Assembly (NCBI RefSeq): GCF_032854445.1
Contig: NC_088304.1
Location: 24,723,513 to 24,787,512, forward strand
Origin: Liolophura sinensis
Lineage: Eukaryota > Mollusca > Polyplacophora > Chitonida > Chitonidae
Length of the DNA: 64,000 bases
Reading direction: 5' to 3'
Shown here in pieces: positions 266-48,700 of the stretch (position 1 is the stretch's first letter; each line of letters begins with the position of its first letter). The notes below the pieces were generated by a model. It was not told the DNA's origin. It made no database searches and worked only from the letters and a program-made list of their open reading frames with translations. The position numbers and the translations under genes were made by a program.

Positions 266-3200
266 ATGGCTTGGCGACTGCTGACGTGTACTTTACTTCT
301 TGTCGCGGTTTTCGCGAACGATTCCGAGGATGTCGTAACTGACAAAGATGTTGTGAAGGCTCGAGTCGAGGTGAGCATATACCCGTGTTTTGTAAATCAG
401 TTTGATATGATTTGCAAAAGATGGGTTGGTTTGTTATTCTCCAATTGAATGATGAGGCTCAACACGGTCGATAATGTTTACATTGACAGGATATGATTGA
501 CACATTGCTTCGGAGAATTTTTCTGTACACTTTATATCTCAGAATAATGGGTTATGCATAAGTGAAATTCAAAGAAAGGAGAGTGGTTAAATGGTAAACC
601 TACACTGTCAGGCACAGCTCAGTTAACTGGTTAGGACGTCAAGCAGGCGGCATGTGATTGAAGGCTTGTCATAACATTTGCTGTAACTTTATCGGTCTAG
701 TTAGAAAATTCGGACCAGTTACCAGTGTGCAATACTGAAGCTTTGATATATCCTAACTCCAATGAGTTTTCTGAAAACATTCTACTTGACATCTTCTGAG
801 TTCTTCATTTTCAGTCCACTAGATTTGGAGAGTGAGAAATGTTAACTTAAGTATCATCGTGATCAGAGTTAGAAACTTTATTCCTGTCCTGATGAAATGT
901 TATTCTGTGTTAATTGTTTATTTACATGTATTTGATTGGTGACTTTGGGGTGTGTAAACGCTCGTCAGGAATATTTCACTTTTAGTATGACGGTCACTTT
1001 GACATTATTGATGAAGGAAACATGGGTGCCGAGTGAAACCACAAACAGTTTGTGGCCAACTGAACATGCAGTTCATGGAGTCTTCCTAAAACATTTGGAT
1101 GCACATCGTAGATGTCACTGACAGTTGTAACGACAGGGTGGATGCCTTCATTGGTCGTTGACTTTCTTTTACCACATGACCGCAACCTCAGCCTAACAAA
1201 TCCCAAACCTACACGTCGTTGACAGGTATTCGTAGTATTACAGCAATGTTGAGCATTTTGGGTGAGGTGTAGCTGACAATCATGACACTGCTTTGTTAAC
1301 AAAGGAGTCATGTTATGGTTTGCAAATCAGAGGCTTCAAATGATTGAAATAACTTTGATGAAGTGCATTTTTGTGCTGTGTGTGTGTGTGAGAGCCTAAA
1401 ATCTTGTTTTAGGAATGGTGATCATTCCTTGGAAGGAATTTCCCTTGGAATTGCATGTTGCCCTTTTGACCTCAGTTTTATTTGAATGAAGTTTTCATCA
1501 AGGAATTATAGTAATGCAAGACTTTGTTAGAAAATGACAGAATGAAAGATACAGCCATACAAGTGTGCTGTATGTATATTTCACCTGAAGCTTGGTATAT
1601 ACCAATGCGTTTTGGGAAGCACATACAGGTCCTTCATATGATACTTAAGTTTTTCTGATAAGAAATGTCACAAAAAGCTTTTTATGTCGCCTTATAAGGT
1701 GAGTGAATCATCTGAAATTAAGCAGTATGTTTCACTGGAAAAATGCTAAACTTTAGGTAAAATACATAGTATTAGTGAAATGTTTGTAATCTCCTCACCT
1801 ACAGAGTAGATAGTGATTCTTATTGTACACTTGGGAGGAAATATAGAGAAAAAGAGAAGCCCATAGAAATAGCCTGAAAAGAAATCTTGGGCCGGGCCCT
1901 AGCCGTGTGATATCAGTAGCCAGTGAATGCCTTTTCATGGTGCAGGCACAATACACTTTAGTCTGGCATGCGTGCATACATACATATATACATATGTCAT
2001 AAATGAAAGTTCAGAGTGAATTATTTAGGGCTAAATAAATTATAAGAACCCCAAATCCACTGTCATTGAAGAATTGCCACAGCAGTGAAGAGCCATATAT
2101 CATGAAAAGGGTTCTGAGAATGTAAGATGTCAGGAGCCACTTTACCTTCCGACGATAACATGTGCACATGACCATTGGCACAAGACTAGTTTACATGTAT
2201 ACCTTGTCAATAAATATCATTGGAAGACAATCAGACACTAAATTGGTCTGGGTAATACTAGTATGCAGATAATGTTATGAGTGATTTATATACCACTATT
2301 TATTTATTTATTTATTTGATTGATGCTTTACGCCGTACTCCAGAATATTTCACCCTGCAGAATGCAACCTGCATTATGGTGGGAGGAAACGGGGCAGAGT
2401 CCGGGGGAAACCCACAACCATCCGCAGGTTGCTGGAAGACCTTTCTACTTACTGCCATAGAGGAAGCCAGCATGAGCTGGATTATACCATTATAAACTAG
2501 TCTGTTATAAGTGTACAGTATAATTTCTGTCTTATCCACCGGGAATTCGTGATAAGTTGTAGCATTGATGTTGTCAGTAACGTGGCGATGATATGAATTA
2601 TTTGCTGAAAAAGTGAATGTGTCGGTGTATATGTATGCTTACATCAATCTACAGCCGTTTTTGTCTTCATGGCTCCATTGTCCAGGTAACACTGGCAAAT
2701 TAGACCATGTGATTGTCATTACGCTCTTATATGTTTATGCATCTGCATATAATAGTGTTCATCTGACATCGTGAGACGAGAACTGATGATGGTAATAAGA
2801 TAATATGATTTGCATATAGACTGATTGCTCTGTGCGACTGTATAGTTGATCATTGCTGAATTAGATCTAATTAAGATGTCATGCTCATGTTGTTAATTAT
2901 GAATCTATCCATGTACATGTCCAAGCATGAGAACATGCTTCATGAGGTTAAATAGAGGTTTGGCATCGTTTTTCTGTTGTGTTATCGCCAACAAAGACGT
3001 TTTTAATGGTGCCCTGAATTGGCAGCATATAGATTATGTATCAAGCATGCGTTTGTGGCCACACCCGTCTTCCATATTTCCAAGCACGAGAACATGCTTC
3101 TGCAGGTTAAATAGAGGTTTGGCATTGTTTTTCTGTTGTGTTATCGCCAACAAAGACGTTTTTAATGGTGGCCTGAAATGGCGTCATGTAGATCATGCAT

Positions 3201-6200
3201 CAAGCATGCCTTTGTGGCCACACCCGTCTTCCATATTTCCAAGTACGAGAACATGCTTCTGCAGGTTAAATAGAGGTTTGGCATTGTTTTTCTGTTGTGT
3301 TATCGCCAACAAAGACGTTTAATGGTGGCCTGAAATGGCATCATGTAGATTATGCATAAAGAATGCCTTTGTGGCCACACCCGTCTTCCATATTTCCAAG
3401 CACGAGAACACGCTTCTGCAGGTTAAATAGAGGTTTGGCATTGTTTTTCTGTTGTGTTATCGCCAACAAAGACATTTTTAATGGTGGCCTGAAATGGGAT
3501 CATGTAGATTATGCATCAGGCATGTGTTTGTGGCCACACCCGTCTTCCATATTTCCAAGCACTAGAATATGCTTCATGAGGTTATATAGAGGATTGACAT
3601 TGTTGTCTGTTGTGGTGAATTGAGCCCAACAATAAAAGCATGTTTGTTACAGGTAATGTGACAAACTCTCCACAAAATGGCCTGACTTTTTATTGGGTTT
3701 TTCTGGAATTTGTCAATGTTGTCAAAGTTTACATCTTTAAAATCCCTACTGGTATTGTTTTCATTAGCCAGAAGAAAAATTCTTCACAGACCAAACCTAT
3801 TCTTTAGGTTACCCGCACAAAGAAGTTTTCAATGATGGCCTGAAATGACAGCATGTAGATTATGTCTTAAGCACGCATCTGTAGCTATCCTGTTACCTGT
3901 GTGAATCACAAACAGGTGTTCATTTGATGGATAGGTTGTATCTCGACATGTGCATAACTCTTACATGTACATTACCATACTTCTTCTAAAAATTGTAATC
4001 CTTACATATTACCTATGACAGCTCAAACTCTATGAATTTGATATAGATGTGAGAGTGATATTTATTTTATTTAATTTTTGTGAAGTGCTTGGTATTAAAA
4101 CTTGATGATAATTGGCAAATAAATAGAGGATACTGCACAATGAAGGTTGAATACCATCGATGTTTTGCGAGTGATGTGATATTTAACTGGGTAAAATATC
4201 AAATTATGTGTAACGGAAGACTGACGTTTGACCTTCATACAAATAATGAATCGTATCATTGGTTGAAAGTATTTTAGGCTTAATAGGTACAGAACTGGGG
4301 GGAAAAGTATATAATTTACGGTAATTATGTAGTGGTGTGTGACATACTGTGTGTAGTTTTGAATATTCACTTCTGTCTAACCATTGATTGTGGAATTAGA
4401 CTCATTGATGCTGTTGTTGCTCAACATATGTGACAAGAAATATTGACCACTTTCACAGGACGTTCGAAAGATACATGTGCATTACAAAACCCTTATGCAT
4501 TTTAAGAGGTAACTTCGCCTGTCGTCAGATGTTGCCTTGATACATTAAAGTTGAAAAGTGGCTAATGGCTACCCTAAGCCCTCATCTTTTTGCATATGGA
4601 AGAAAAACTTTCACTGCAATTGATGCTCCTTTTTAATTTGATTTTGGAGACAAAACTGTGTTACTTGGATTGGTCAGTTGCAGGGCCCAAAAAGCATAAT
4701 TTTATCAGCCTACGCAGAATAATGCTGTCAGGATATGCTTGTATAAACAGCTTGCAAGCATGCGACCATCTTGAAGAATTAAGGTATTAGTTTACAATGT
4801 ACCTTTTCTAGATTGAAGTTACAAGTTGAACTTGTAACTTCTAATTAAATTTCTGTACTGGGTCAAAGTTTCCATTTGGAACCAGAAGAGGTGGTCAGAT
4901 CTCAGTGTAACCAGAAAGCAGTTATGTTACCGTTACTTTTGGTTTAAGTCATTAGAATATCCCAAGTAATGGGTTACATGAACAACAGTAGACTGCCGCC
5001 CGCTACACGACCATCTGCAGGTTGATGACAGACCTTCCCACTTACGGCCGGAGAGGAAGCCATCATGAGCTGGACTTGAACTCACAGCGACCGCATTGGT
5101 GGGAGAATCCAGGGTCATTACGCTGCGCTAGTGCGCTAACCAACTGAGCCACGGAGGCCCCCCGCTACTTGTACAAGCGCCTTGTGATCACCCTGGGTAA
5201 ATAGAAGCGGGATGATGGACTTCAGACTACAGAATACACAGCACGGTGTGGTGTACATGTACACATTAGTACACATGTAGGTTATGTATGGAGAATAATG
5301 GTCTTGCGGATGTAATAAAAATCTGTATATTCTTTTTGTTTTTTCTCCCAACAGAGCTGCACTGGATGAAAATTAAACCGGCTCCCGTTGGTGAAGAAAT
5401 TCATCAATCAGGATATCCCGCTTTTGTATCCTTTGTACTGTGTGACAGAAGCAAGCTGAGTTGTCACAGAAGCAGTCTGAGTTGAATACTTGATCAGGTG
5501 TATTTGTGTAAGCCATTGTTTGCTGATACAGTACGTGAGTAACATACATGATCTATTCGGCCTCATTCCTCACTGATGCCATTTCATCTTTCACCTCCTC
5601 AGCCATTCAACCTTGTCCTCCCTTTGAAGCCCTCTTTGTCGTCAGTGATTTCCCCTCCTCCTCAGTGTTTCTGTCTTCCTCCCTTTAATGCCCCTTCATC
5701 CTCAGTGATTCCCCATCCCTGTAAAGCCTCTTCTCCTCAATAATTCCTCCTCCTTCCCCCTTTAAATCCCCCCTCCTCAGCGATTCAGTTCCTCCTCCCT
5801 TTAAAGCCGCTCCTCCTTAGCAATTTCCTTCTTCCTCACATTATAGCCCATTTCATCCTCGGTGATTCCCCCTCCTCCCTATAAAGCCCATCCTCCTCAG
5901 TGATTCCCTCCTTCCCCCTTTAAATCCCCCCTCCTCAGCGATTCAGTTCCTCCTCCCTTTAAAGCTGCTTCTCCTCAGCAATTTCCTTCCTCATCACATT
6001 ATAGCCCACTTCATCCTCAGTGATTCCCCCTCCTCCCTATAAAGCCCATCCTCCTCAGTGATTCCCTCCTTCCCCCTTTAAATCCCCCCTCCTCAGTGAT
6101 TCAGTTCCTCCTCCCTTTAAAGCTGCTCCTCCTTAGCAATTTCCTTCCTCCTCACATTATAGCCCACTTCATTATCAGTGATTCCCCCTCCTCCCTATAA

Positions 6201-8431
6201 AGCCTATCCTCCTCAGTGATTCCCTCCTTCCCCCTTTAAATCCCCCCTCCTCAGCGATTCAGTTCCTCCTCCCTTTAAAGCTGCTCCTCCTTAGCAATTT
6301 CCTTCCTAATCACATTATAGCCCACTTCATCCTCAGTGATTCCCCCTCCTCCCTATAAAGCCCATCCTCCTCAGTGATTCCCTCCTTCCCCCTTTAAATC
6401 CCCCCTCCTCAGTGATTCAGTTCCTCCTCCCTTTAAAGCTGCTCTTCCTTAGCAATTTCCTTCCCCCTGACATTAAAGCCCACTTCATCCTCAGTGATTC
6501 CCTCTCCTCCCTATAAAGCCCACTTCATCCTCAGTGATTCCCCCTCCTCCCTATAAAGCCCATCCTCCTCAGTGATTCCCCCTCTTCCCTATAAAGCCCA
6601 TCCTCCTCAGTGATTCCCCCTCTTCCCTATAAAGCCCATCCTCCTCAGTGATTCCCCCTCCTCCCTATAAAGCCCATCCTCCTCAGTGATTCCCCCTCCT
6701 CCCTATAAAGCCCATCCTCCTCAGTGATTCCCCCTCTTCCCTATAAAGCCCATCCTTCTCAGTGATTCCCTTCTTCCTCCCTTTAAAGCTGCACTCATCA
6801 TATCATTGATCAGTCAATCAGTCAACCATTAATCCTTAACATGGTACCTCAGTCACAATGTGGAGTTTAAGGGTGTTCCAGGTGCCAACCCTGATCTCCT
6901 CCTGTTGAACAAGGATGGACAAATCGTAGAGGTGAGGCCATAATGAAAAATATGTTTGTTAGGCATAACCAGACTGACCCTCCAAAAAAGTGCTCTACTA
7001 TGAAATTTTTTATATGGATTTTTTTTATATTTATATTTTTTTTTTATATTTTTCTCTCAATGCCAGAATGGACCCTCTTTTCCTTTCCATATGGTCGGGT
7101 TACACCTCAAAAAGAATTTAGGCCTGGCTCCTGGCTCTGGCATTTATGTACATTACTCACAAGAATTGATTGCAAAAATGCTTCCACACATCGCTCCCTA
7201 AGAGCATAACAAACAGTCTCTGGCTCAGTCGTCCCTATTTTGCTGGAGATAGATGGAGGTTTATTTATTTGGTTCTTGTATGGAGAACTTCATTGAGACG
7301 ATATCGTATCTACAGGAGACCACACCTAATATCATCACAATGATTTTTTTTTCAGGTTGGATATTCATGAATTTCTACCTGAGCTGTTCTGATTTATTGA
7401 CACGCAGTGCATGAACCCTTTTTACTTTTATGTTAAGTAAATAAGAAAGCTTCACACATCAGTGATTCCTAATATCGGTGAAATAGATCCATGCATTGCA
7501 ACACTACAGCAAAAAGAGTAAAACCAGATCAGTGAAGACATAGGATAGTTTGGTAAATGGTCAAGTGTAGTAGGTGAATCCAGGCCTCTTGTCAGTTCAC
7601 CTGCAGTTAAGCTTTTATTCCAACTCTTCATGTAAACATGAAGGTATATGGTCTGGATAGACCATTGTAATCGCCATTATCAAAGACAACCCCAAAGTCA
7701 GAAATGAAAAATTTATATCTCTACGTGGACTTCAGAGATTTGAAGCGGTTATTTAAAAATATTTTTTTTTATGTTGGGTATTTAGGACCACCTCTTGGTA
7801 TACACATGTACTGTCTTTTTGTAATGATGTTATAAATGAAGAGCAACCTGTGGATGGTTGTGGGTTTCCCCCAGGCTCAGCCCGGTTTCCTCCCACCATA
7901 ATGCTGGACACCGTCATATAAGTGAAATATTCTTGAGTATGGCATAATACACCAATCAAATAAATAAAATAAATAAAATAAGAAAATATAAATGAAGATG
8001 TAACTCATGTTTAATAAATATATTCGAATTTGGTCTTACCAACTAACAAATGTGTTTAACCTGGATTTTGATCATATTTATATCTTTAATACATTCATTT
8101 ATATCATAATTCGTATTGAATACTTCAATACATGTATTGAATATTCTGCCTGGGGTGGTGGACCAGAATTGTTTCCTACCTGATTACGACTTTAAAATGA
8201 AGAATGTCAGCCTTGAATTTATTCATTTAGTTACATATTATTTTTTACGCTTATTTATTTATTTATTTTTTTTCTTTTTTGGCATTTCAGCGAATTGATC
8301 TGTCTAAGCGTAACAGGGAAGAGTGCAATGAGCTTCTATTAAAAAAAGGATTTTTCAAGAAAGAGGATGTGAGCGAGGAAGTTCCTGCTGAGTATTTACA
8401 TGGGCCATACAAAGAAAAAGAAGAGTTATAG
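266..8431 (+). CDS. SELENOM: Selenoprotein M, four coding exons, with in-frame UGA
   Basis: Coding exons 266-370, 5355-5425, 6853-6931 and 8291-8431, all with GT-AG introns and matching phases, give 131 residues. The protein begins with a signal peptide (MAWRLLTCTLLLVAVFA), then ARVE-SCTGU-KLNRL, where U is TGA at 5367-5369 (residue 40). It continues with PLFHNVEFKGVPGANPDLLL and ends VPAEYLHGPYKEKEEL. This follows vertebrate SELENOM (CGGU redox motif, QLNRL, FYHNL, PGADPELVLL, PPEYVWAP). SELENOM is an ER-lumen thioredoxin-fold oxidoreductase; the motif here is C-T-G-U. The last four residues, KEEL, resemble a KDEL retrieval signal. The start at 266 is the only in-frame ATG before the signal peptide; the open frame reaches further upstream but has no ATG there. 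The SECIS at 9723-9812 supports UGA decoding. The TGA breaks any conventional gene model here, so automated annotation would probably lose exon 2. Confidence 0.93.
2300..2488 (-). repeat. tRNA-derived SINE A copy, truncated (SELENOM intron 1)
   Basis: Reverse orientation. It starts with the TATTTATTTA tail complement and continues through the ACGCCGTACTCCAGAATATT, CATTATGGTGGGAGGAAAC and GGAAACCCACAACC landmarks to GAAGCCAGCATGAGCTGG. The tRNA-like head is missing. It matches the fuller copies at 10052 and 57512. Confidence 0.85.
2921..3620. repeat. Tandem repeat, 159-bp unit, about 4.4 copies (SELENOM intron 1)
   Basis: The landmark GAGAACATGCTTC and its variants recurs at 2929, 3088, 3247, 3404 and 3563, a period of 157-159 bases. 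Each unit contains CTGTTGTGTTATCGCCAACA and CCACACCCGTCTTCCATATT. A diverged outlying copy is visible around 3816-3890. Because 159 is divisible by 3, long open frames appear; they show no other sign of coding. Confidence 0.95.
5008..5163 (-). repeat. SINE A copy with intact tRNA-like head
   Basis: Reverse orientation. It includes the complement of the head: an A-box-like TGGCTCAGTTGG appears as CCAACTGAGCCA, and a B-box-like segment as GGACTTGAACTCACAG. The 3' half of the element is absent. Confidence 0.85.
5355..5425 (+). CDS. SELENOM: SELENOM exon 2 carrying the selenocysteine codon
   Basis: This 71-base exon has an acceptor after CCCAACAG and a donor GTATCC. In frame with exon 1 it reads S-C-T-G-U-K-L-N-R-L-P-L-V-K-K-F-I-N-Q-D, then I-P-L and two bases completed by exon 3. 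The TGA at 5367-5369 sits exactly where the family has selenocysteine. Reading the exon in another frame gives an apparently open but unrelated peptide, which hides the gene. Confidence 0.93.
5570..6795. repeat. CT-rich tandem array, 158-bp higher-order unit made of about 38-bp monomers (SELENOM intron 2)
   Basis: GATTCAGTTCCTCCTCCC recurs at 5782, 5940, 6098, 6256 and 6414, exactly 158 bases apart. After about 6500 a single 38-bp monomer (CAGTGATTCCCCC...CTATAAAGCCCATCCTCCT) repeats at 6570, 6608, 6646, 6684 and 6722. The strand is strongly pyrimidine-rich and nearly fills the intron between exons 2 and 3. Confidence 0.95.
7841..7975 (+). repeat. SINE A copy, 3' half (SELENOM intron 3)
   Basis: Runs from CAACCTGTGGATGGTTGTGG through CCTCCCACCATAATGCTGG and AAATATTCTTGAGTATGGC to an ATCAAATAAATAAAATAAAT tail. 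The head is missing. Confidence 0.85.
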
Positions 8432-9722
8432 GGAATTTACACATTAGCATTGTCCAGTTTTTATTTCCGAATTCAGTGTTTTAGAAAAAGAAGCGTTTGC
8501 ATTTACCTGATATTTAGATATTCAAGTAGGAATTTTCTTTCTCGTGTCTTTTGCTGGTTGGTCATCAGTGGACCATTTAAAAACAGTGGCCAATCATGGA
8601 ATTAAAAGTTTTCTTGATTTTAGAAGAAAGAATGGAAGGAAACTCAGTTTTTACTTGTATCTACCTGTATCAATAGCTCAACTACAAATGTTAGTATTAT
8701 CAGAAGTCCATGAATTGGAAGTGCGCAGCTCTCAGTTATATCTGCTACATGGTATTGGAGTCAGACATCAGTGACGTCACATGTCAGCGAGGCCTGTTTT
8801 TTGTGCAATGCTGGGTCATCATATATTTACCGTAATGGCCAGCTCTAGTCAAGTACTGTATTTCACCTGTAGTTTAGCATTTTTCAAATGACACATTTTA
8901 CTTGATTGCAGCAGATTGCCTCACCTTTTACATTTAAGCTTAAGGGAGTTTTTTGTAAAGTATGATCATAAAAACCTAAGTCTTGGCATCGAAAATATCA
9001 TTTTTATGCATTTCTGTGCTTCTGAAAGTGCATTTTTTTTAGAGATGAAACTTGAAAAACCTGCAGTATTTTCATGAACGAAGGCTTCCTTTCTATGATA
9101 TATAATGTGTAATGTGTGGACAATTAGAGCAGGGAACTTGAGCATAGAACCAGGCTATTTCCCATCATGCTTCAGTGATTTTTGTAGTTGTGTGTTTTGT
9201 TTAGTGTTTAATGAAAGCTTCCATACACTAAGGCTTTGTAGCTGGCCAAATTGAAAGTTAAACATTTCCATTTCGTGGACTTCTGCTAGTATGCACAGGT
9301 GTACATGGATAAGCAACTACTTCGGCATATTTTCGAAAATATATAACTTTGAATTTTTTACTGTGTTAGCAGTATCCATCTTACACAGCTGACTGAGATT
9401 ATTTGTTGGACAAAAACTGTAGGTCTGGTCTATGAAAGAGAAAAGAGGCAAAAGAAAATATTAGTTTGAAAATGAATTCTCTACATGTTCATGTACTTAA
9501 TATTCGTTTTTTGTACATGCCCTATGTTTACATGGATTACTGTTTTGTGCCCCCTCATTGTTAGTGTAAAATGTGATTTTACGACATTGTCTACAATTGT
9601 CTCTGGTAAATGTTCTATTGGGTTACATGTGAAAGGTTGGCACCTGGTCAGAATTGTGAATTTTGATTTTCATATGCTCAATTCCAATTGGACACAGCTT
9701 TGTACGAACTTTGTACTTGATT

Positions 9723-9812
9723 GGACATCATGCAGAGCTCGAATGAAGCCATTGGCACGAAACCTTTTTCAGGGTAACCAATGGTGGATAAATATGCTGT
9801 GGTATGTTGTCC
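9723..9812 (+). promoter_or_regulatory. SECIS element (selenocysteine insertion hairpin) in the SELENOM 3' UTR
   Basis: The lower helix pairs GGACATCATGC (9723-9733) with GTATGTTGTCC (9802-9812), with one mismatch and one G.U pair. After an internal loop comes the non-Watson-Crick quartet: ATGA at 9743-9746 opposite GGAT at 9786-9789. The next helix pairs GCCATTGG (9748-9755) with CCAATGGT (9778-9785), followed by a small internal loop and two more pairs. The conserved unpaired adenines are AAA at 9760-9762, 13 bases after the quartet. A 3-bp apical stem CCT/AGG closes a 5-base loop. An apical mini-stem above the adenines is the type II SECIS form. I derived the structure by eye without an energy calculation. 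Confidence 0.87.
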
Positions 9813-9862
9813 AGTCAAAAAGCGGGTTGACAAAGTTGACAAGTTGTCTCATTAGTCTCGTC

Positions 9863-9868
9863 AATAAA
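9863..9868 (+). terminator. Polyadenylation signal AATAAA, probable SELENOM 3' end
   Basis: AATAAA lies about 50 bases after the SECIS and is followed by a T-rich stretch. This would give a 3' UTR of about 1.45 kb. Position and element order fit a selenoprotein transcript; the cleavage site itself is not shown. Confidence 0.55.
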
Positions 9869-10051
9869 GTCTTTTTTTTTTCTTTTTTATAATTACGCTT
9901 TCTCTTTCTTTATATTATTTATTTATATTATTTATATTTATTGAACACAAGCGCCATAGGAAGTTTGCAGTGATACCATAGCATTCAGGTTTATGAGGGG
10001 ATTAAACCAAATTAAACTACTGACCTTTGGCAAGTTACTAACAAACTAACC

Positions 10052-10310
10052 GGGGACCTCTGTGGCTCAGTTGGTTAGTGCACTAGCGCAGCGTGATGAC
10101 CCAGGAGTCTTACCAATGCGGTTGCTGTGAGTTCAGCTCATGCTGGCTTCCTCTCTGCACGCATGTGGAATGGTCTGCCAGTAACGTGCAGATGGTCGTG
10201 GGTTTCAGTCAGGCTCTGCCCAGTTTCCTCCCACCATAATGTTGGCCACCGTTGTATAGGTGAAACATCCTCGAGTACGGCATAAAACATCAATCAAATA
10301 AATAAGTGAA
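10052..10310 (+). repeat. Full-length tRNA-derived SINE A
   Basis: The head starts at GGGGACCTCTGTGGCTCAGT, with A-box-like TGGCTCAGTTGG and B-box-like GAGTTCAGCTC (degenerate). The body has GGTCGTGGGTTTCAGTCAGG and TTTCCTCCCACCATAATG. The tail is CATCAATCAAATAAATAAG. This is the most complete forward copy and a reference for the others. Confidence 0.9.
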
Positions 10311-10764
10311 ACAAACAAACCCATATGTTTCATGCAGACTTACATGTGGTCTTCAACAAATGTAAAATTGCTCAAGCTGGCCAATGAGCACTGTCAACTG
10401 CCTAGTTATATCTGGCCCCTCTAACCGTGAAAACAGAGAAATCTACAAATTCCACGTCAAAGGTCAGGATTGAACCCACACCCATTGAGATGTACACGTC
10501 CTTCTCTCCAAGTACTGCAAATTGCAGGGGTTAAGCGGGAGATGCTTGTTCACATTTGTTCAAAAGTGTATTTGCTAGTACTGGGATAAAGTTATGCACA
10601 TATTTAAAAACTTAGCAAAACTGGGCAGCCAGTCCAGTAATATAAAGGCTAAGTATAACAGCAGCAGATTTAGTATATACTTAATATACTGTGAAACCAC
10701 TAATTGTAGACTAAGTACAAACTTGAAGACTTGGCTTTAAATTAAATCTTGTACTAAGTCTAAA

Positions 10765-11520: not shown

Positions 11521-11809
11521 ACAATCAAAAGCAATTTTAATAGTGAGGCAATGAAATCAAACCTTGTAACCAGTGGGAAATGAGGCGTGAAGCATAGTCT
11601 TTTTGGAGTAATTTTTTTTTGTTTTATATGGAAAAACTTGACATAGAAATGTCATGGATTCATCTTACAAGTGCTAAACGTGACAAAACTAGGAGCTACA
11701 TAAGATAGTTCCCTGCTGTTTTCAGTGCTTCTGTGTCTCTATCACTACTATAAAATACTAGACATGGTTTAGGCTGTCTGTAGTGGCCTGAAAACCCAAT
11801 ATATGCTTT

Positions 11810-14800
11810 CATTAGAACCAGACTGATGGGTGCCATCAGAAGCTTCCATTAGAACCAGACTGGTGGGTGCCATCAGAAGTTTTCATTTGAAACAGACTGA
11901 TGGGTGCCATCAGAGGCTTCCATTAGAACCAGACTGATGGGTGCCATCAGTAGCTTCCATCAGGACCAGACTGATGGGTGCCATCAGTAGCTTCCATTAG
12001 AACCAGACTGATGGGTGCCATCAGTACCTTCCATTAGAACCAGACTGATGGGTGCCATCAGAAGCTTCCATTAGAACCATACTGATGGGTGCCATCAGAA
12101 GCTTCCATTAGGACCAGACTGATGGGTGCTATCAGTAGCTTCCATTAGAACCAGACTGATGGGTGCTATCAGAGGCTTCCATTAGAACCAGACTGATGGG
12201 TGCCATCAGAGGCTTCCATTAGAACCAGACTGGTGGGTGCCATCAGAGGCTTCCATTAGAACCAGACTGATGGGTGCCATCAGAAGCTTCCATCAGACCA
12301 GACTGATGGGTGCCATCAGAAGCTTCCATCAGACCAGACTGATGGGTGCCATCAGAAGCTTCCATCAGACCAGACTGATGGGTGCCATCAGAGGCTTCCA
12401 TTAGAACCAGACTGATGGGTGCCATCAGAGGCTTCCATTAGAACCAGACTGGTGGGTGCCATCAGTAGCTTCCCTCAGAACCAGACTGATGGGTGCCATC
12501 AGAGGCTTCCATTAGAACCAGACTGATGGGTGCCATCAGAAGCTTCCATCAGAACCAGACTGATGGGTGCCATCAGAAGTTTCCATTAGAACCAGACTGA
12601 TGGGTGCCATCAGAAGTTTCCATTAGAACCAGACTGATGGGTGCCATCAGAGGCTTCCATTAGGACCAGACTGGTGGGTGCCATCAGAAGCTTCCATCAG
12701 AACCAGACTGATGGGTGCCATCAGAAGTTTCCATTAGAACCAGACTGGTGGGTGCCATCAGAAGCTTCCATCAGAACCAGACTGATGGGTGCCATCAGAA
12801 GCTTCCATTAGAACCAGACTGATGGGTGCCATCAGAGGCTTCCATTAGAACCAGACTGATGGGTGCCATCAGAGGCTTCCATTAGAACCAGACTGGTGGG
12901 TGCCATCAGTAGCTTCCCTCAGAACCAGACTGATGGGTGCCATCAAGGCTTCCATTAGAACCAGACTGATGGGTGCCATCAGAAGCTTCCATCAGAACCA
13001 GACTGATGGGTGCCATCAGAAGTTTCCATTAGAACCAGGCTGATGGGTGCCGTCAGAAGTTTCCATTAGAACCAGACTGATGGGTGCCATCAGAGGCTTC
13101 CATTAGAACCAGACTGATGAATGCCATCAGAAGCTTCCATTAGAACCAGACTGATGGGTGCCATCAGAAGTTTCCATTAGAACCAGGCTGATGGGTGCCG
13201 TCAGAAGTTTCCATTAGAACCAGACTGATGGGTGCCATCAGAGGCTTCCATTAGAAACCAGACTGATGAATGCCATCAGAAGCTTCCATTAGAACCAGAC
13301 TGGTGGGTGCCATCAGAGGCTTCCATTGGAACCAGACTGATGGGTGCCATCAGAGGCTTCCATTAGAACCAGACTGGTGGGTGCCATCAGAAGCTTCCAT
13401 CAGAACCAGACTGATGGGTGCCATCAGAAGCTTCCATTAGAACCAGACTGATGGGTGCTATCAGTAGCTTCCATTAGAACCAGACTGGTGGGTGCCATCA
13501 GTAGCTTCCCTCAGAACCAGACTGATGGGTGCCATCAGAGGCTTCCATTAGAACCAGACTGGTGGGTGCCATCAGTAGCTTCCCTCAGAACCAGACTGAT
13601 GGGTGCCATCAGAGGCTTCCATTAGAACCAGACTGATGGTGCCATCAGAAGCCCCCATCAGAACCAGACTGATGGGTGCCATCAGAAGTTTCCATTAGAA
13701 CCAGACTGGTGGGTGCCATCAGAAGCTTCCATCAGACCAGACTGATGGGTGCCATCAGAGGCTTCCATTAGAACAGACTGATGGGTGCCATCAGAGGCTT
13801 CCATTAGAACCAGACTGGTGGGTGCCATCAGAAGCTTCCATTAGAACCAGACTGATGGGTGCCATCAGAGGCTTCCATTAGAACCAGACTGATGGGTGCC
13901 ATCAGAGGCTTCCATTAGAACCAGACTGATGGGTGCCATCAGAGGCTTCCATTAGAACCAGACTGATGGGTGCCATCAGAAGCTTCCATCAGACCAGACT
14001 GATGGGTGCCATCAGAAGCCCCCATCAGAACCAGACTGATGGGTGCCATCAGAAGTTTCCATCAGAACCAGACTGGTGGGTGCCATCAGAAGCTTCCATC
14101 AGAACCAGACTGATGGGTGCCATCAGAAGCTTCCTTTAGAACCAGACTGGTGGGTGCCATCAGAGGCTTCCATTAGAACCAGACTGGTGGGGTGCCATCA
14201 GAGGCTTCCATCAGAACCAGACTGGTGGGTGCCATCAGAAGCTTCCATCAGAACCAGACTGATGGGTGCCATCAGAAGCTTCCATTAGAACCAGACTGGT
14301 GGGTGCCATCAGAGGCTTCCATTAGAACCAGACTGGTGGGTGCCATCAGAGGCTTCCATTAGAACCAGACTGGTGGGTGCCATCAGAGGCTTCCATTAGA
14401 ACCAGACTGATGGGTGCCATCAGAAGCTTCCCTCAGAACCAGACTGATGGGTGCCCATCAGAGGCTTCCATTAGAACAGACTGATGGGTGCCATCAGAAG
14501 CTTCCATTAGAACCAGACTGATGAATGCCATCAGAAGCTTCCATTAGAACCAGACTGGTGGGTGCCATCAGAAGCTTCCATTAGAACCAGACTGGTGGGT
14601 GCCATCAGAAGCTTCCATTAGAACCAGACTGATGGGTGACCAGACTGATGGGTGCCATCAGAAGCTTCCATCAGACCAGACTGATGGGTGCCATCAGAGG
14701 CTTCCATTAGAACCAGACTGGTGGGTGCCATCAGTAGCTTCCCTCAGAACCAGACTGATGGGTGCCATCAGAGGCTTCCATTAGAACCAGACTGATGGGT

Positions 14801-14888
14801 GCCATCAGTAGCTTCCCTCAGAGCCAGACTGATGGGTGCCATCAGAAGCCTCCATTAGGAACCAGACTGGTGGGTGCCATCAGAAGTA
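11810..14888. repeat. 37-bp minisatellite, about 83 copies, with an inverted repeat in most units
   Basis: The unit is 37 bases: TTCCATTAGAACCAGA followed by CTGATGGGTGCCATCAG and AAGC. CTGATGG and CCATCAG form a perfect 7-bp inverted repeat around GTG; the first is at 11823-11839. GAAGCTTC at the unit junction is a second palindrome. The commonest variant has CTGGTGG in place of CTGATGG. Because 37 is not divisible by 3, every frame cycles through the unit, so the open frames here are artefacts. Confidence 0.97.
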
Positions 14889-15280: not shown

Positions 15281-15459
15281 ACCCACCAGGCCATGAAAAT
15301 CCCTACAGCAAGTTAAGTACGTAGGCCTACACAATAATTGTGGAAAATATACATGCAGGCAGCTTGTTCTTCAGGAGGAAGATTTAGCTGTAAGATGAGT
15401 AAGGTACAAGACTCGACCTTGTAACCAAGAGGCAAACATTATGTGGGTTCAAGCCCTGG

Positions 15460-17180
15460 ACATTCCCCTGCTCTCATTGTGTGAAGGGACCATGGTGCCA
15501 CCAAGCGGTCCATGATGGTACATTCCCTTGCTCTTATTGTCCATGATTGCACGTTCCCCTGCTCTCATTGTGTGAAGGGACCATGGTGCCACCAAGCAAT
15601 CCATGATTGCACATTCCCTTGCTCTCATTGTGTGAAGGGACCATGGTGACACCAAGCGGTCCATGATGGTACATTCCCTTGCTCTCATTGTGTGAAGGGA
15701 CCATGGTGCCACCAAGCGGTCCATGATTGTACATTCCCCTGCTCTCATTGTGTGAAGGGACCATGGTGCCACCAAGCGGTCCATGATTGTACATTCCCCT
15801 GCTCTCATTGTGTGAAGGGACCATGGTGACACCGAGCGGTCCATGATGGTACATTCCCTTGCTCTTATTGTCCATGACTGCACGTTCCCCTGCTCTCATT
15901 GTGTGAAGGGACCATGGTGACACCAAGCGGTCCATGATTGTACATTCCCCTGCTCTCATTGTGTGAAGGGACCATGGTGACACCAAGCGGTCCATGATTG
16001 TACATTCCCCTGCTCTCGTTGTGTGAAGGGACCATGGTGACACCAAGCGGTCCATGATTGTACATTCCCCTGCTCTCATTGTGTGAAGGGACCATGGTGA
16101 CACCAGCGGTCCATGATTGTACCTTCCCCTGCTCTTATTGTCCATGATTGCACGTTCCCCTACTCTCATTATGTGAAGGGACCATGGTGCCACCAAGCGG
16201 TCCATGATTGTACATTCCCCTGCTCTCATTGTGCGATGTGACCATGGTGACACCAAACCGTCCATGATTGTACATTCCCCTACTTTCATTGTGCGATGTG
16301 ACCATGGTAACACCAAGCAGTCCAACGATTGTACATTGCCCTGCTCTCATTATGTGAAGGACCATGGTGACACCAAGCGGTCCATGATTGTACATTCCCC
16401 TGCTCTTATTGTCCATGATTGTACATTCCCCAGCTCTCATTGTGTGAAGGGGCCATGGTGCCACCATGCAGTCCATGATTGTATATTGCCCTGCTCTCAC
16501 TATGCAATGTGACTGTGGTGACACCAAGCGGTCCATGATTGTACATTCCCCCTGCTCTTATTGTCACTGATTGTACGTTCCCCTGCTCCCATTGTGTGAA
16601 GGGACCATGGTGACACCAAGCGGTCCATGATTGTACATTCCCCTGCTCTCATTGTGTGAAGGGACCATGGGGACACCATGCAGTCCATGATTGTACGTTC
16701 CCCTGCTCCCATTGTGTGAAGGGACCATGGTGCCACCAAGCGGTCCATGATTGTACATTCCCCTGCTCTCATTGTGTAAAGGGATCGTGGTGACACCAAG
16801 CGGTCCGTGATTGTACATTCCCCTGCTCTCATTGTGTGAAGGGACCATGGTGCCACTAAGCGGTCCATGATTGCACGTTCCCCTGCTGTCATTGTGTGAA
16901 GGGACCATGGTGACATCGAGCAGTCCATTTATTGTACATTCCCCTGCTCTTACTGTCCATGATTGTACATTCCCCTGCTGTCATTGTGTGAAGGGACCAT
17001 GGTGACATCGAGCAGTCCATTTATTGTACATTCCCCTGCTCTTATTGTCCATGATTGTACATTCCCCTGCTCCATTGTGTGAAGGGACCATGGTGACATC
17101 GAGCAGTCCATTTATTGTACATTCCCCTGCTCTCATTGTGTGAAGGGACTGTGGTGACAACGAGCGGTCCATGATAACGC
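15460..17180. repeat. 60-bp minisatellite, about 28 copies, with shortened units
   Basis: The unit is 60 bases: CCATGATTGTACATTCCCCT, GCTCTCATTGTGTGAAGGGA, CCATGGTGACACCAAGCGGT. Some units break off after GCTCTTATTGT and restart at CCATGATTG, giving units of about 31 bases. As 60 is divisible by 3, several frames stay open, including 263 codons on the minus strand with a 20-residue repeat. No splice signals or non-repeat coding sequence flank it. Confidence 0.96.
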
Positions 17181-25022: not shown

Positions 25023-28000
25023 TTATGTCCCACCATTGTAAGCGTAGTCTGCTTTGTTATGCATTATGAGTTGATCTTCAACAAAATAAAAACTGTCGGA
25101 ACGTGTCTCGTAGGGGTGGTCAATCATCTCTTGAGCTGAAATTCCAAAAATAAGAAAGCATTTAAATTTACGTTCAGGTTCTGGTTTTAATACTACCATA
25201 TCTCAGCTGAAACCCTCGTACTGGTGGAGGCACTGAAATGGCCAAAATTTACTCCAGTAACCGCAACACAGAAAGCCATGTGCTGTATTCCACTTGAATC
25301 ACACTTTTTACCCCAATTCCTCAACCTTTTCACTTATGAAAGAGTAAGTTTCAGTGTGATTTATGCAGTTTTTTGCTTTGATTTTGGAGACAAAACTTCT
25401 CTGGTTGGGTATGCCTGTTTCAGGGGTTCACAAAAGGCATAGTTTTATCACTCTACACAACAAAATGTCCTCAGAGTACGGATGAATAATCATCGTGCAA
25501 GAATTTGAAAAGGTTGAAGAATTTACATGAATAAATCTTAAAAGATGTGGCCACCAAAGCAGCCACCAGAAGTTGTGTCTACCCTATCATTCGGAGCTAT
25601 CTACACCCATACATTCACGCACAAAGTCCCAAGTTTTATACTAACAGCAGTATATATCAGCGAGCTGGTTTATGGGCATGGGAAACCATGCCAAGCCTAA
25701 GGGACACCACCAGCACCTTTCCAGGTACCTGACAAACGCAAATTGTACAAAAAAAAAATCACAACAGAAAACAATGTTTTCATAGGTTTGTGTAATGTAG
25801 ATCTATACAAATGGCAAATGACCTAAAATTTCGACAATGACTAAACTGCACATTCCGAGAGGTTTATTGATTTTAGAAGGATGTATCTTTAAAATAATAA
25901 TATAATAATTTATGACATTTATCTGCCTTTATAAATGCAATATTTGGGTCAAAATTTTATGTCATTAACCATATGTCCAGGTGACCAAATATGACCATAC
26001 TAAACCATACCGTTCACAATTTACTTATTCAAGTCACATCAGAGTCATCTGATGAGGAACTTGTGCTTTTGAAGTTTACAACGCATAGATTTTCACCTGA
26101 CGAAAACAAGACAGTGAACATACGCCATGCAGAATCTGAATTCTACTTACTCATACCTTCATCTTCTGACAGCAATGGGAATTCGTATATATGTTCACAG
26201 GTATTCTTGCTGTTGGGGATACAGAAGCCGAATTCAAAGTCAAAACTCTTGAGGAGCCTTTCTCGGAAATAATGCCGCTCGACCATTCGGAACTTGTTCA
26301 CCGGTTTGTCACCAACAATGAATTCCACACTGAGGGAGGAGAGATTTGGAAAAGAATATTATAATAAAGCTTATCATACTTCATTACAGGTACAAGTAAA
26401 ACTAGGTTAGTAAATAACATAGTAACATAACATAGTAAATATTTCTACTGTGTATAAGTTTTATCCAGACCATGATATCACATGTAAATCACATTACACA
26501 CTGCATTTACCCCATTCTGGATTCACGATAAGCTTCTATTACGTGTTACATTTATGTGTAAATGATAAGCTTCTATTACGTGTTACATTTATGTGTAAAT
26601 GATAAGCTTCTATTACGTGTTACATTTATGTGTAAATGATAAGCTTCTATTACGTGTTACATTTATGTGTAAATGATAAGCTTCTATTACGTGTTACAGT
26701 TATGTGTAAATGATAAGCTTCTATTACGTGTTACATTTATGTGTAAATGATAAACTTCTATCACATGTTATGATATTACACATCATATTACATTATGATC
26801 TACACTGTTCCTTTGTACAGTGGACCACATCGGACATCTGTTTTGGATTAGTATGCATCAGGCTTAACCACTTAACCATCTCTTACACGTAATTTATTCT
26901 GCACTTATAAGCTGACTTTTTTATGGGTGGAGAAAGCAGGGCAACCACACTACCTACGAGGTATAAATGTACCTGATGAACATGCAGACAAAAGCTGCAG
27001 TGGAGGTCAAGGGCCAGTAAAATTCAGCTGAGTACATTAGCTCACTTAGCCAACAGGAACCCTGACTGTTCTACAGTACTCATAAAACATGACATTACTG
27101 AATATGGAAGTTTAGAGTTAGAATGTTATGACATGGTACCGTGGTGATGTGACATGACAGAGGGGTAATCATAAAGCTCTGTATTCTCGGTATACAGGTA
27201 TATGTAGTGTTTTAAGCACAGACTAGTGGAGCAATCACTGCACTACTCATCCACCTGTCCACTTCATCCACCTGATGGTGTGACTTACAACTTCACCATA
27301 CAAGAGAGAAAACCAAAGCCCTGAACTATCTCAGTCCAGGTGTTTAGTTAACAGAAAAATACTGTAGAATTTATAAATGTGATGATATCTGGGTCAGACT
27401 TACGTAGCACCAACTGTTTTCAGGCGGAGGAATTGTGGTGTAAACTGGTAGCGCACAAAACGTCCCGCGTTCGGATCCACCTCCTCTGAGTCTATATCAA
27501 CATCTTCCTCATCTTCTGGAATACATCATACACAGGTAAGAAAGGGCACCATTCACAGGTATGAAAGGGCACCATACACAAGTAAGGAATGACATCATAC
27601 AAAGGTAAGAAAAGGCACCATATACAGGTAAAAAAAGACACCATAAACAAGTAAGAAAAGACAGCATATATATTTCTATAAGATGGCTAACATCACTTGA
27701 TCTCACAGGTCAAAAGTAATATTTTATGACATTTATTGACCCTAAAAATGCACTTCTTTGAGCACACTTTTAGGTCATTTACTGGCTTCAGGGTGTCAGG
27801 TAAACAAGACAATGGAATCTCACCTGTGGGTGGAGGCTTAGCCACCTCAAATAACACAGCCCCAGACTCCATGTCCCGTAACTTGAAGCGAGTGAAGTCT
27901 ATACCAAATACATTGGCCTCCGGTGGGCATAAGTATTCTGAAACACACAACATTATCAGGAGATTAATATGGGCAAACCTAATGAAATAAATCACATTTG

Positions 28001-31000
28001 TATCCACATGTACATCAACATGTTAATGTGAGGCCAGAATTTACAAAATATATTATGTTACACCTTACTGAAGAATTATTCATATGTAGCAAGACGAAGA
28101 CAAGTTTTCATTAACAAACTTAAGACTATGCAAACGGCCACATGAGCGCCAGTAATCGTTCATTCTCATCATCATCCCACAAACAATGAAATCACAGGAA
28201 TCTACAAATGAACTTGTACCGAATAAGAAGAGATGGAAATCAAATAATACATTCAGGCTGATGGCACACTAGCAATATATTGGACATTGGACACTGGAAA
28301 TGTCATACTCTAAGAGAAAAGAAGAAATGTGTGGTCTGGTTTGTTAATATGCCATGCAAGTCCATGTATTGCAATCAAACTTTGCAAGCACAATCAAAAT
28401 TTGTAAGTACAATCAAACTTTGCAAGTACAATCACAATTTGCATCTTTTCAACATCTTAAATTCAGCCTGCCCAATCCTCAGTAGATGTACATGCATGTC
28501 TTTACACCATTTCACCACCAAACACAGCTTTTTAGTTTGGGCATCATTTAGGACGCTAATTTAGGGTAAAATATTTTCAGATAGACGGAAACCAGAAAAT
28601 AATGTCTTACATACCATATTATAGTGTCAAAATTACTTACAAATCTTTGCACAGTGATTACGTATAAATATACAGAATTGCTTAAAACACTAAAGCTAAA
28701 TCAGGCCAGATTCCCAATAAATTGTTTTTTTTTTTTTTTTTTAGGGAAACATGTAATTTGGGCATCTGTGCTAGGTATCAGAATGTCCTTGTATTTGGTC
28801 ATGCATTTGCAAAATTAATGTTCAGTTTGCAACTTTGTATAGGTGTACACATTTATAAACCATCAAATGCCTATTCGTTTAAAGACCGTGCTACAAAAGT
28901 TCTACAAACTACATGTAAATACCGCACCCATATAAATGAACTCCAATTATCATCTTAAACACCTTTGATTGCATGTAATTCTTCACCGCCAAATCTTTCT
29001 GAATGATAGTGTTGTTTATACTTTGCATCAAAATGTACCACGCACAGAGCTTTAAATTTATTTCACTTATTCCACAGCGGCCAGCATTATGGTGGGAGGA
29101 AACCTACGACCACTCATCCGCAACTGACAGATCTTCCCACATACCAGGGCTTTAAATTGTACTGAATTAAACATTACCTCCTTTACTGGATAAATGTATT
29201 TGCATGTAACAATTTCAGATCCTTTTCAATCTTACTCAGTGAATAACATTTAATATTGATAAATTTATTGATGAGTTGTAAAAATAGAATACGTATATTT
29301 TAAGGCTGTGCTTTCATATACGACCATAAGTACATCCCCAACTATATGGGAGTATTTGCACTAGCTATTCCAACATTACTACAAAAATTTCTCAGTAAAA
29401 TAATTGCTTCAGAAATCATTCAAAACTCCTTTTATGTCAGACTTCAATTCAATTTAGTTCAGAAAAAATATAAAGAAAAAAGCAGAAATATTTTAGAATA
29501 ATAATAAATTTAATCAATTAATAATCAAAAAGAAATGTACTTACATGTGAGACATGTGCATGTTAACAGATTTAATAGCAATGTTGGAAAATAGGCATTG
29601 TCAATTCTACCTGATATAGGAAGTGCTAAATAATGACGTACATTGTACACGCGATCAGTAATCACCCCTAAATCTGTGTTTAGTCTGCCAAGCATAATCC
29701 ATACTTAAAGTCCACATGGCTGATTGCTGGGTTACATTCCTGTTACTAATGAAGCTTCAGGATGAGTGGCTTTGCCTGACATTAGAACAGAAAGGGCCGC
29801 TTCTGGGTTGAACCCTGTACAATGTGTGTCGGGAAGGAGGGTGGGGGGATCAATAACACTGAAGCCAGACTCTGGCAGAATGATCGGATCATCGCAGAGG
29901 AATCACGCAATGCTGAACTTACTTCACTCTGACTTAAAATACAGAATGAGAAACGTATAAAGCAGACACATCATGTCTTACAAGGGTAACCATAGTACTG
30001 TACTGGCCTTATCAACAGCTCATTCTCAGCCTGAATTAGGCTTAAGAGAACAGCTTGTTGTGAAATAGACCTGAATTAAAATTTCACGAATGAAATGAAG
30101 TCTCATATATACATGTATCTGGTCCAGCCTCAGCATCATAAAACAGACTTTTTTGTACTCTCAAATAAAATAGGACTGTTTGATTTGCTACCAAAGTTTT
30201 AGAAAAGATAAACCAGAATCAGTTGTCAGGACCAGATAGTACTGACTAGAACAAGTTAACCTAAACACATGTATAAATCCCAATACACGTGTGCTTACAT
30301 ATATACCGTGTTCGTTACTTAGAGATCACCTTTAGTTGTTATGTTCTTATCATACCTAGGAAATATTACACACATACCTGAATCTGAAAACAAAAAGTTT
30401 TACAGGTGCAAGTTTGAAAATAAGCTTTAGGACAAGGACAATGTCCTGCACGAAACAGCATTATCACCAGGGACTCTGGTCTACAAACTATTAGTGACAT
30501 CAAATAAACACTCTGGACCATTGTTTTGAAAGTTGTACTTCTGTTTTTTAACTGTACATTTTACTCACCAGAGTAACGTCTGGAAACAGTATATGCATTA
30601 GTACGTGTGGATTGTATGACAGAGGGTTACCATAGCTAATACCAACATGGACTAAACATGATTGAACTAAGTGACAAACAGGTGACAACATACCAAGGAA
30701 AGCACTAAAATACTGACTAAAAGGATAACACTGATATGACATATATGTGGCTAATTATAGTCCTATCACCAACATAACACAAGCACAGGTTAACTACATG
30801 TGTAATGATACATAACAAATTGCATTTTGTTATAGTGTAGTATTTTGACCCCGGCCAACTGTTACAAAATTTACAGCCCCTGCTTGGTTTAGAGCTGTCA
30901 TTTTCTGGTTGGCATCTTGTACTGCTTACTAGATGATTGACCCTTAACAGTAGTGCTTAGAGAAGAAAAGATCACTTGACTTGTACCCTATACTATAATC

Positions 31001-45700: not shown

Positions 45701-48700
45701 GCGGTTTATACAAAAGTTTGCACGGTGGTTTTTTTTTCATACCTCAGTGAACTGAAAAAAGTTAGTCAACCCTTATAATTAGATTAAATCAAAAATACAA
45801 AATACCTGATCTGGTACATGATGTACAAGCTACTCTATCTGCCGTAAGGGTGCGTTTTTTTCGTCCATAGTAGGTACAAGAATACAATTTTATAAATGAA
45901 ACGCACGAATAAATGGAACGCTGCAGTGCTCTTTCATGACTCCACGAGCACAGTCTGTCACCAGCTGAAAGTTTTATCGGCAACATGGTGAAGTTTGAAC
46001 CACTGATTGAGTTTTGGAGAAGATTGAAACGTACAGACGGTGAAAGATGAGTCGATGATGCAGAACTAGTGGAATTGACTTGCTGTGCAGTTATCCTGAT
46101 AGTGGAGAGGCATGATTGTTGTGTTTTGAACAGAAGACAGCAACAGGTTTGGAGTGATGCGAGGAGCGAAGACGACATGACGGGGAAGGCTGGCCATGGC
46201 TTGTGAATGCATGCAGTGCTTGTGGCTTCGCTGGCAGATGTCAAGGGGTGTGATTCTCACGAGGCTGAGCAATAAATAGGTTGAAGATCTCCTGTTTTCT
46301 GGAAAATTTCCTAATGTATAACTTCGCATAGAACTTCCATATGTGTGGCCCCTTATAAGCATTCGTTGTCACAACTGTAAACCTGTGAAAGTCCCTGTTT
46401 GAATGTATGGAGCGGGGCAGACAGCACGTAGGCTGTGCGTAGGTTTTAGTGCACTACATGAGATGTATGGATCATGGAATACCAAGACTAGATGTGAAAA
46501 CAAAGAAAATCTATGCCTGGCCCTGTGAGGGACAAAACATTCAAAATGGACAGAGAGGTCATAGCAAACCTTAAATCTTTGAAGCACATTATCTATATTG
46601 CTTGGAGCCCGGTAGGAACTGATATTTACAAAATCACAATGTTGAATAATTTCCTTGTGATTGTAACACAAACCAACTCTGACATCAAATTTTAATTTTC
46701 AGGTCTGTGATGTCTCATTAGGGCTGACCTGACTTTTTTTAGCAATGGTTATGATGTCAGTACTCAAATGTCTGTTCAACATTTATGACAGTGGATGTTT
46801 TATCAGGATGTTTTGATTGAGCGTTGTTGTGAAATGAAGTGGTGGAACTGTTTGTAATCTAAGTCTTTCCCTTCTAGCATGGCGCTCCATTGTAAATTTA
46901 AAAAATGAAGAAAATCTGATTCGATATAAGTGTTTGTTTCAATATCTTGGATATTCCAAGTGTTTTTCACTTATGGTCATCAGTTTATTTGTGCATTATT
47001 GAAAGTGATACCAGAAATTCTGCTTTAACATGATAAAGTGGTACAATGTTTGTAGATTTCAAGATATACCTGTAATGGCACATGTTTTTTGGAAATTGCC
47101 CTGGAGTCTTATTATGTTTACTAGACCACATCGGTGGCCTAATGTAAAGATCGTCCCACTTAAAGCCAGGAAGCCCGGGATCAACCCTGGGGCAAGTCAA
47201 ACCAAAGACTTCAAAATGGTACTTGTTGCTGCCTAGCTTGGGGCTCAACACTGAGAGGTCAGAGCAAGGAACAGGGCTGGTTGGCCTGGTGTCAGTATAA
47301 TGTGACTGGGTGGGGTGTCATGTCCCGTGTCTTCAGCATAATGCTACAGTGGCAGAAGCACTTTGGCGGCTTGAACTTGCTCTAACACAAGAAAACACAC
47401 ACCTAATGACTCCTCCTCTTCATATGACTGAAAAGTTGTACGTTTTTCATACATTTTTTTATACATGTTGTGTGCACAGGAGCTGTAAGAAGGCCCCCCT
47501 GATACAGTGTGATTATTGCCCACTGCTGTTCCACATGGATTGTCTGAACCCCCCACTGACCAGCCTTCCATCGGGACGCTGGATGTGCCCAAACCATGCA
47601 GAACACTGCCTTGTGAGTCTCAGAATGCTGTAATGTGTAGATATAGCCTTCCTCATGTATGAAGACTTAATTTCTCAGAATTTGGGGAACTCTTTGTTAG
47701 TGCTGGTGTAATTATTGAAGTAGTCTGGTACATGTATAATTTGTTTTGTTTGCTGTATATTCAACCTTCTTTCGTCTGTAATTTTAGACTATTACCCTTG
47801 CGGATTTTCTAGTGCCCGAACTGTGTTGAATGCTGTCAAGTTCATGTATTAGAAATGGTTGACAGTATATACTTTTTAACTCAGAAATCATTAGTGTGAT
47901 CTTGTCTGTTTTGCCAGGATGAAGGCTTGCTGAAGTCGGTCAGTTTGACAGAACGAGTAAAGTTGTGGGATCATTACACATCTAGTCCAGTCAACCAGCA
48001 CACTGCCAAGATTTGCTTCCTAAAGAAAATACACAGACATAGCCCTCCATTCAGGATAAAGGTCAAGCATGCTAAGAGGAAATCTGTACAGGTAAGTACT
48101 GCATCTCACTGTTTGATGAAAGAAATTGGGTCATTGACCAGTATGTCAAGTCATTTGAATTTCATTTTGCGTTAATTTACTTCAGTATTGGCACGAACCT
48201 TGTGCCTTCAGAAGAGTTGTTTACAGCTATAAAAGACTTGCATACCTGTACATTACATTACTAAAACAAAGTCTTCTTGATTGGAGTGAAGTTGGCTGCG
48301 GCTTGAAGTCAAGGAGGTTTGTCAGGTACCTGGCTAAGGCCGATGGTTTACTCCACTCGCTCTGTTTTCTCCACCCATGGACCTGACTGCTGTCTTGTAA
48401 GTGATAAATTCCTGAGTATGGCTTTACCAACCAACCAATCAATCTATCAGTCTATCATTACTGGATGCGGAGATAGGCCAACTATTGGTCTACCCCGTGG
48501 GCGTGACTTACATATCTCAAGCCTGGTGTCTTTTGCACAAGCAACCAGAGGATCAAGTCCTACTGGTGTGATCTAACTTCCTGTTATTGTATACTTTCAG
48601 GTTCCTCAAAGCATTAAAGAACATTATTCCCATCCACCTGCACTTTTACCAAAACCATTTAGTCATGTGACCCCATCAAGAGTAGACAACTGGCATGGGA

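Follow-up and report, generated by a model that had tools for sequence, protein, structure and literature searches.

A chiton selenoprotein M gene with an in-frame UGA and a candidate SECIS hairpin in its 3' flank

The window analysed here, 64 kb in its whole length, corresponds to C10:24723513-24787512 in a Liolophura sinensis assembly of 609,464,459 bases and 632 contigs. Liolophura is a chiton, a marine mollusc of the Polyplacophora. The published genome paper, which uses the name L. japonica, gives 632 scaffolds with 609,495,693 bases, a longest scaffold of 96,433,062 and an N50 of 37,343,639 (PMC11068029), and the species has been the subject of a correction (PMC12441733). At the start of the window we found a gene for selenoprotein M (SELENOM), whose four exons of 105, 71, 79 and 141 nt join into a single frame of 131 residues (396 nt including the TAG stop; Table 1). 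All three introns are of the GT..AG type. The joined frame contains a single in-frame TGA, at residue 40, and its product reads ...KARVE-SCTGUKLNRLPLVKKFINQDIPLF-HNVEFKGVPGANPDLLLLNKDGQIVE-RIDLS...KEKEEL, with a signal-like N-terminus and a C-terminal KEEL recognized by eye. An earlier note on this DNA had read S-C-T-G-TGA-K-L-N-R-L in exon 2 in the phase of exons 1, 3 and 4, which the 396-nt joined frame bears out, and it had placed the TGA exactly. A genome-wide search for SELENOM loci returned four matches, all of which are the window's own exons; SELENOM is apparently a single-copy gene in the chiton.

Table 1. Features of the SELENOM locus; positions are those of the window.
Feature	Position	Strand	Basis or remark
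SELENOM exon 1	266..370	+	Start codon, signal-peptide-like N-terminus, to ...KARVE; GT donor; homology from residue 29
SELENOM exon 2	5355..5425	+	71 nt, C-T-G-U motif; genome exon match with one TGA inside
C-T-G-TGA motif	5358-5369	+	C-x-x-U in which U is the in-frame TGA
In-frame TGA, residue 40	5367..5369	+	Aligned under Cys of 2a2p; very probably read as selenocysteine
SELENOM exon 3	6853..6931	+	Joined frame, genome exon match
SELENOM exon 4	8291..8431	+	TAG stop; C-terminus ...KEKEEL (KDEL-like tail)
Candidate SECIS with basal stem	9718..9817	+	19 pairs, 9718-9738/9796-9817; Rfam SECIS_1 match 9733-9801
SECIS core, 5' side, ATGA	9743..9746	+	Pattern, fold, Rfam
SECIS apical AAA	9760..9762	+	13 bases after ATGA
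SECIS core, 3' side, GGAT	9786..9789	+	Pattern, fold, Rfam
AATAAA, likely polyadenylation signal	9863..9868	+	Motif only

Large minisatellite arrays lie inside intron 1 (2920-3614, period 159) and intron 2 (5690-6730, period 158), and further large arrays occupy 11805-14886 (period 37) and 15449-17172 (period ~60). A dispersed repeat is present in four copies in and after SELENOM, in both orientations (2303-2479, 5006-5170, 7842-7977 and 10044-10315); it starts with a tRNA-like stretch and looks SINE-like by eye. The window also holds exons of other genes: one at 47301-47633 on the plus strand encodes a PHD finger (33.9 bits), and one at 27693-28022 on the minus strand encodes part of a GMP-PDE delta domain (29.2 bits).

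Residues 32-106 of the protein match the Pfam family Sep15_SelM (PF08806) with 84.8 bits, compared to a cut-off of 26. Two solved structures were matched, selenoprotein M (2a2p, E 1.6e-26), which has a Cys at the position of the chiton TGA, and Sep15 (2a4h, E 1.3e-5). The earlier note's identification as a SELENOM with a CxxU motif is in line with these matches. The protein shares with the SELENOM family (PF08806, 2a2p) the domain, the Sec position, the length class, the signal-like N-terminus and the KDEL-like tail. Its motif is C-T-G-U, whereas a review describes CGGU for the family (PMC10668967). SELENOF/Sep15 (2a4h) has the Pfam domain in common with it, but the match is much weaker, and in the SELENOF motif, given as CGU in the same review, a single residue separates C from U (PMC10668967). 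By the E-values of these two structures, the protein is nearer to SELENOM than to SELENOF. Searches of PHROGs and NCBIfam with SELENOM gave no match. A 2012 survey reported SELENOM in four of six invertebrates (sponge, sea anemone, annelid and amphioxus) and does not list it for Trichoplax or for the limpet Lottia gigantea, the survey's mollusc (PMC3473315).

We then aligned 14 homologous proteins, found by a search that would miss protein models far shorter or longer than the query. At the TGA position, three of the 14 have W, the firefly protein has Cys and the isopod protein has an unrelated stretch. The other nine start past the motif, six of them from the second residue after it and three later (one of these being that of Solemya velum). 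The W residues and late starts look like typical gene-caller output at a TGA, and the W residues would then stand for TGA. None of these 14 relatives appears to be the chiton protein itself, as none is encoded on a contig as long as C10 and the four with a species name come from elsewhere, even though TUFM of the same assembly is in the database; chiton SELENOM is apparently unannotated. This fits the expectation, voiced in the earlier note, that standard gene callers would end or skip exon 2.

Could the TGA be avoided by splicing? If exon 2 were skipped, or an alternative acceptor removed the TGA, a protein without Sec would be made, and frame 2 of exon 2 is indeed open. However, exon 2 is 71 nt long, and joining exon 1 directly to exon 3 breaks the frame, which stops after ESQCGV; moreover, the conserved C-x-x-x-K-L-N-R-L of exon 2 is in the same frame as the TGA. 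Reading exon 1 on into intron 1 ends 25 residues further. In the present gene model the conserved parts are joined only by reading through the TGA, and we consider a Sec-free product of altered splicing extremely improbable.

The genomic sequence between the SELENOM stop and the AATAAA contains a hairpin with the anatomy of a SECIS element. The earlier note had described it as an ATGA/GGAT quartet, an unpaired AAA 13 bases on and a base helix, about 4.4 kb downstream of the TGA. Quartet, AAA and helix are all present (Table 1), and the distance holds for the genomic sequence; in the spliced message UGA and SECIS would be ~1.59 kb apart. The unpaired state of the AAA holds in part: all three residues are unpaired in the centroid fold, but the third A is paired in the minimum-energy fold, where it closes a small apical helix. 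Helix II (GCCATTGG/CCAATGGT, 9748-9755/9778-9785) has 8 pairs, with pair probabilities of at least 0.99 in all four stretches that were folded (69, 96, 141 and 301 nt). A eukaryotic SECIS is expected to have an AUGA/nGAn core at the foot of helix II and, 11-13 nt further on, an apical AA; here the core is ATGA/GGAT, and AAA follows after 13 bases. The 141-nt fold has an energy of -45.6 kcal/mol (z -3.64) and none of 200 shuffles was equally stable; for the 69-nt SECIS core alone z is -1.63, and 14 of 200 shuffles were equally stable. The hairpin lies 74 bases before the AATAAA, and an ATTAAA at 8601 precedes the hairpin. Drawing on what is known of the family and the pathway, transcription would be expected to run through ~9863.

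The hairpin has the ATGA core, helix II, apical AAA, mini-helix and basal stem of eukaryotic form 2 SECIS elements (Rfam RF00031), and it is assigned to form 2 because of the apical mini-helix. Where the mammalian SELENOM SECIS has CC at the apical position, that of the chiton has AAA. Form 1 elements had not been identified in invertebrates according to one paper (PMC3328465). In the 2012 survey almost all invertebrate SECIS elements carry AUGA_AA, apart from the GUGA ones that are common in sponges, and the chiton element shares AUGA_AA with this majority (PMC3473315).

How specific is the hairpin? In 8432-9900, Rfam SECIS_1 is the top of six matches and the only SECIS match among the six listed; it scores 26 bits over model positions 1-64, with an E of 0.02 when 4227 families are counted. 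At 26 bits the hairpin falls below the 35-bit gathering score of RF00031, and for this reason it is missing from a gathering-level Rfam scan of the window, which returned nothing. A genome-wide Rfam SECIS search, in which 150 of 13032 candidates were scored, gave two matches, and the window hairpin is not one of them. A strict core-plus-helix pattern, composed with the match already known, hits once on the plus strand and never on the minus strand of the 64 kb, the one hit being the SELENOM hairpin; it was not found in any of 1000 dinucleotide shuffles of 8432-9900, nor in 20 shuffles of the whole window (plus strand only). A somewhat laxer pattern also finds the SELENOM hairpin alone in 64 kb on both strands. 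With a very lax pattern there are 54 hits on the plus and 33 on the minus strand, and the SELENOM hairpin is tied second on the plus strand. The sub-threshold Rfam score and the many look-alikes under this very lax rule would suit a real SELENOM in which 9718-9817 folds into a hairpin by chance and another part of the 3' UTR holds the true SECIS. Yet the strict and the laxer pattern single the hairpin out on both strands, the shuffles of 8432-9900 yield no counterpart, no other SECIS is listed for this stretch, and the hairpin stands shortly before the AATAAA, so that we regard a chance fold as very unlikely. Its anatomy, its place and its top Rfam rank suggest that the hairpin works as a SECIS.

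A third reading of the locus is that of a SELENOM copy which has decayed or was mis-sequenced, the TGA being a nonsense change, and the interruption of the frame by the TGA is what such a copy would show. Against this, the gene has no further lesion, its splice sites are intact and it is the sole SELENOM-like locus matched in the genome. Moreover, the TGA falls precisely on the Sec position of the family, with a SECIS in the 3' flank. We therefore give a pseudogene or sequencing error next to no weight.

The earlier note had proposed to look for tRNA-Sec, SBP2 and eEFSec in the same genome, and all three are there, SBP2 and eEFSec as exon pieces. Five tRNA-Sec loci exceed the Rfam cut-off. ARAGORN calls two of them tRNA-SeC with anticodon TCA (C6:47908678, 80.4 bits, and C5:1088976, 79.1 bits). 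A third locus, at C6:47907698-47907784 (59.3 bits), lies 1 kb from C6:47908678, is without an ARAGORN call and may be a degenerate copy. The two remaining loci (47.2 bits) proved to be tRNA-Ser, and in the window itself ARAGORN found no tRNA. SEPSECS is represented by seven exon matches within ~8.5 kb on C6, none of which singly exceeds the whole-protein cut-off; when 14 control genomes were searched, SEPSECS was matched in Methanocaldococcus only. Three exon matches at C13:17073998-17077226 correspond to eEFSec; two of these were checked, and among solved structures both match best to 5izk, the selenocysteine-specific elongation factor. A stronger selB match on C8 is not eEFSec but TUFM, being 100% identical over 90% aligned to Liolophura sinensis TUFM. 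For SBP2 (C2:16053821-16054852) the best solved match is SBP2 itself with 7e-36, the next reaching 1.5e-5. SEPSECS, eEFSec, SBP2 and selenophosphate synthetase were seen as exon pieces rather than as whole gene models. Since tRNA-Sec, SEPSECS, eEFSec, SBP2 and a TGA-carrying selenophosphate synthetase are all encoded, the chiton very likely decodes Sec.

With a probability of about 97%, we therefore have a chiton SELENOM gene whose UGA at residue 40 is read as selenocysteine by means of a SECIS in the 3' UTR. Homology, frame continuity, SECIS anatomy and the Sec-decoding genes support the same claim of the earlier note for this organism. Counting against it are the sub-threshold Rfam score, the absence of the hairpin from the genome-wide SECIS matches (150 of 13032 candidates scored), the unremarkable stability of the 69-nt core, the look-alikes under the very lax pattern and the ATTAAA ahead of the SECIS. 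By analogy with the known pathway, SBP2 bound to the 3' UTR SECIS would recruit eEFSec with Sec-tRNA(Sec), and the ribosome would insert selenocysteine at the UGA of residue 40. This would yield a short protein of the thioredoxin fold, presumably of redox function as in its family and with C-T-G-U as its redox motif, which may be sent to the ER and retained there by its KDEL-like tail.

Sec decoding by a SECIS is well known in animals, and for this reason the chiton case, while correct, is ordinary. It adds a well-supported SELENOM for a chiton to a family that is already well known; each step is established animal biology and the view of selenocysteine decoding is unchanged. Among the 8 listed of 324 papers matched by a literature search for chiton and selenoprotein, two contain the word selenoprotein, and neither title points to chiton selenoproteins.

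The best match of the genome-wide Rfam SECIS search, among the 150 of 13032 candidates that were scored, lies at C12:2217677-2217744 (34.9 bits), ~4.2 kb downstream of exons that we take to be SELENOT-like. One SELENOT-like piece matches Pfam Rdx with 22.4 bits, compared to a cut-off of 22.6, and the other piece is without a match. No TGA exon for this gene turned up in the 9.9 kb examined.

Finally, two selenophosphate synthetase genes are arranged head to head at C7:52012856-52038000. The one on the minus strand has a TGA in its active site (NFAGLKG-TGA-GCKLPQ, codon at 52030787), and the one on the plus strand has a Cys (TGT at 52032567, KFTDLKGCGCKVPQ). Within ~12.9 kb past the stop of the TGA-carrying gene, Rfam gave no SECIS and the patterns gave weak candidates only, the nearest of which does not fold as a SECIS. 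It is conceivable, though improbable, that the long 19-pair basal stem tunes how SBP2 binds or how Sec is inserted, in a manner atypical for SELENOM, and that selenium use in this lineage is unusual, as the head-to-head pairing of a Cys-carrying with a TGA-carrying synthetase might hint. Among the best 120 of 7899 matches of the Cys copy, the site is occupied by R in 63, by L and T in 6 each, by C in 3 and by W in 2, and 40 lack the motif. The listed relatives with Cys include Panonychus citri and Halotydeus destructor, which we take to be mites. Among metazoans, a 2015 study gives SPS-Cys for nematodes only (PMC4561486); the Cys copy of the chiton and the Cys in listed relatives therefore indicate that SPS with Cys is not confined to nematodes.
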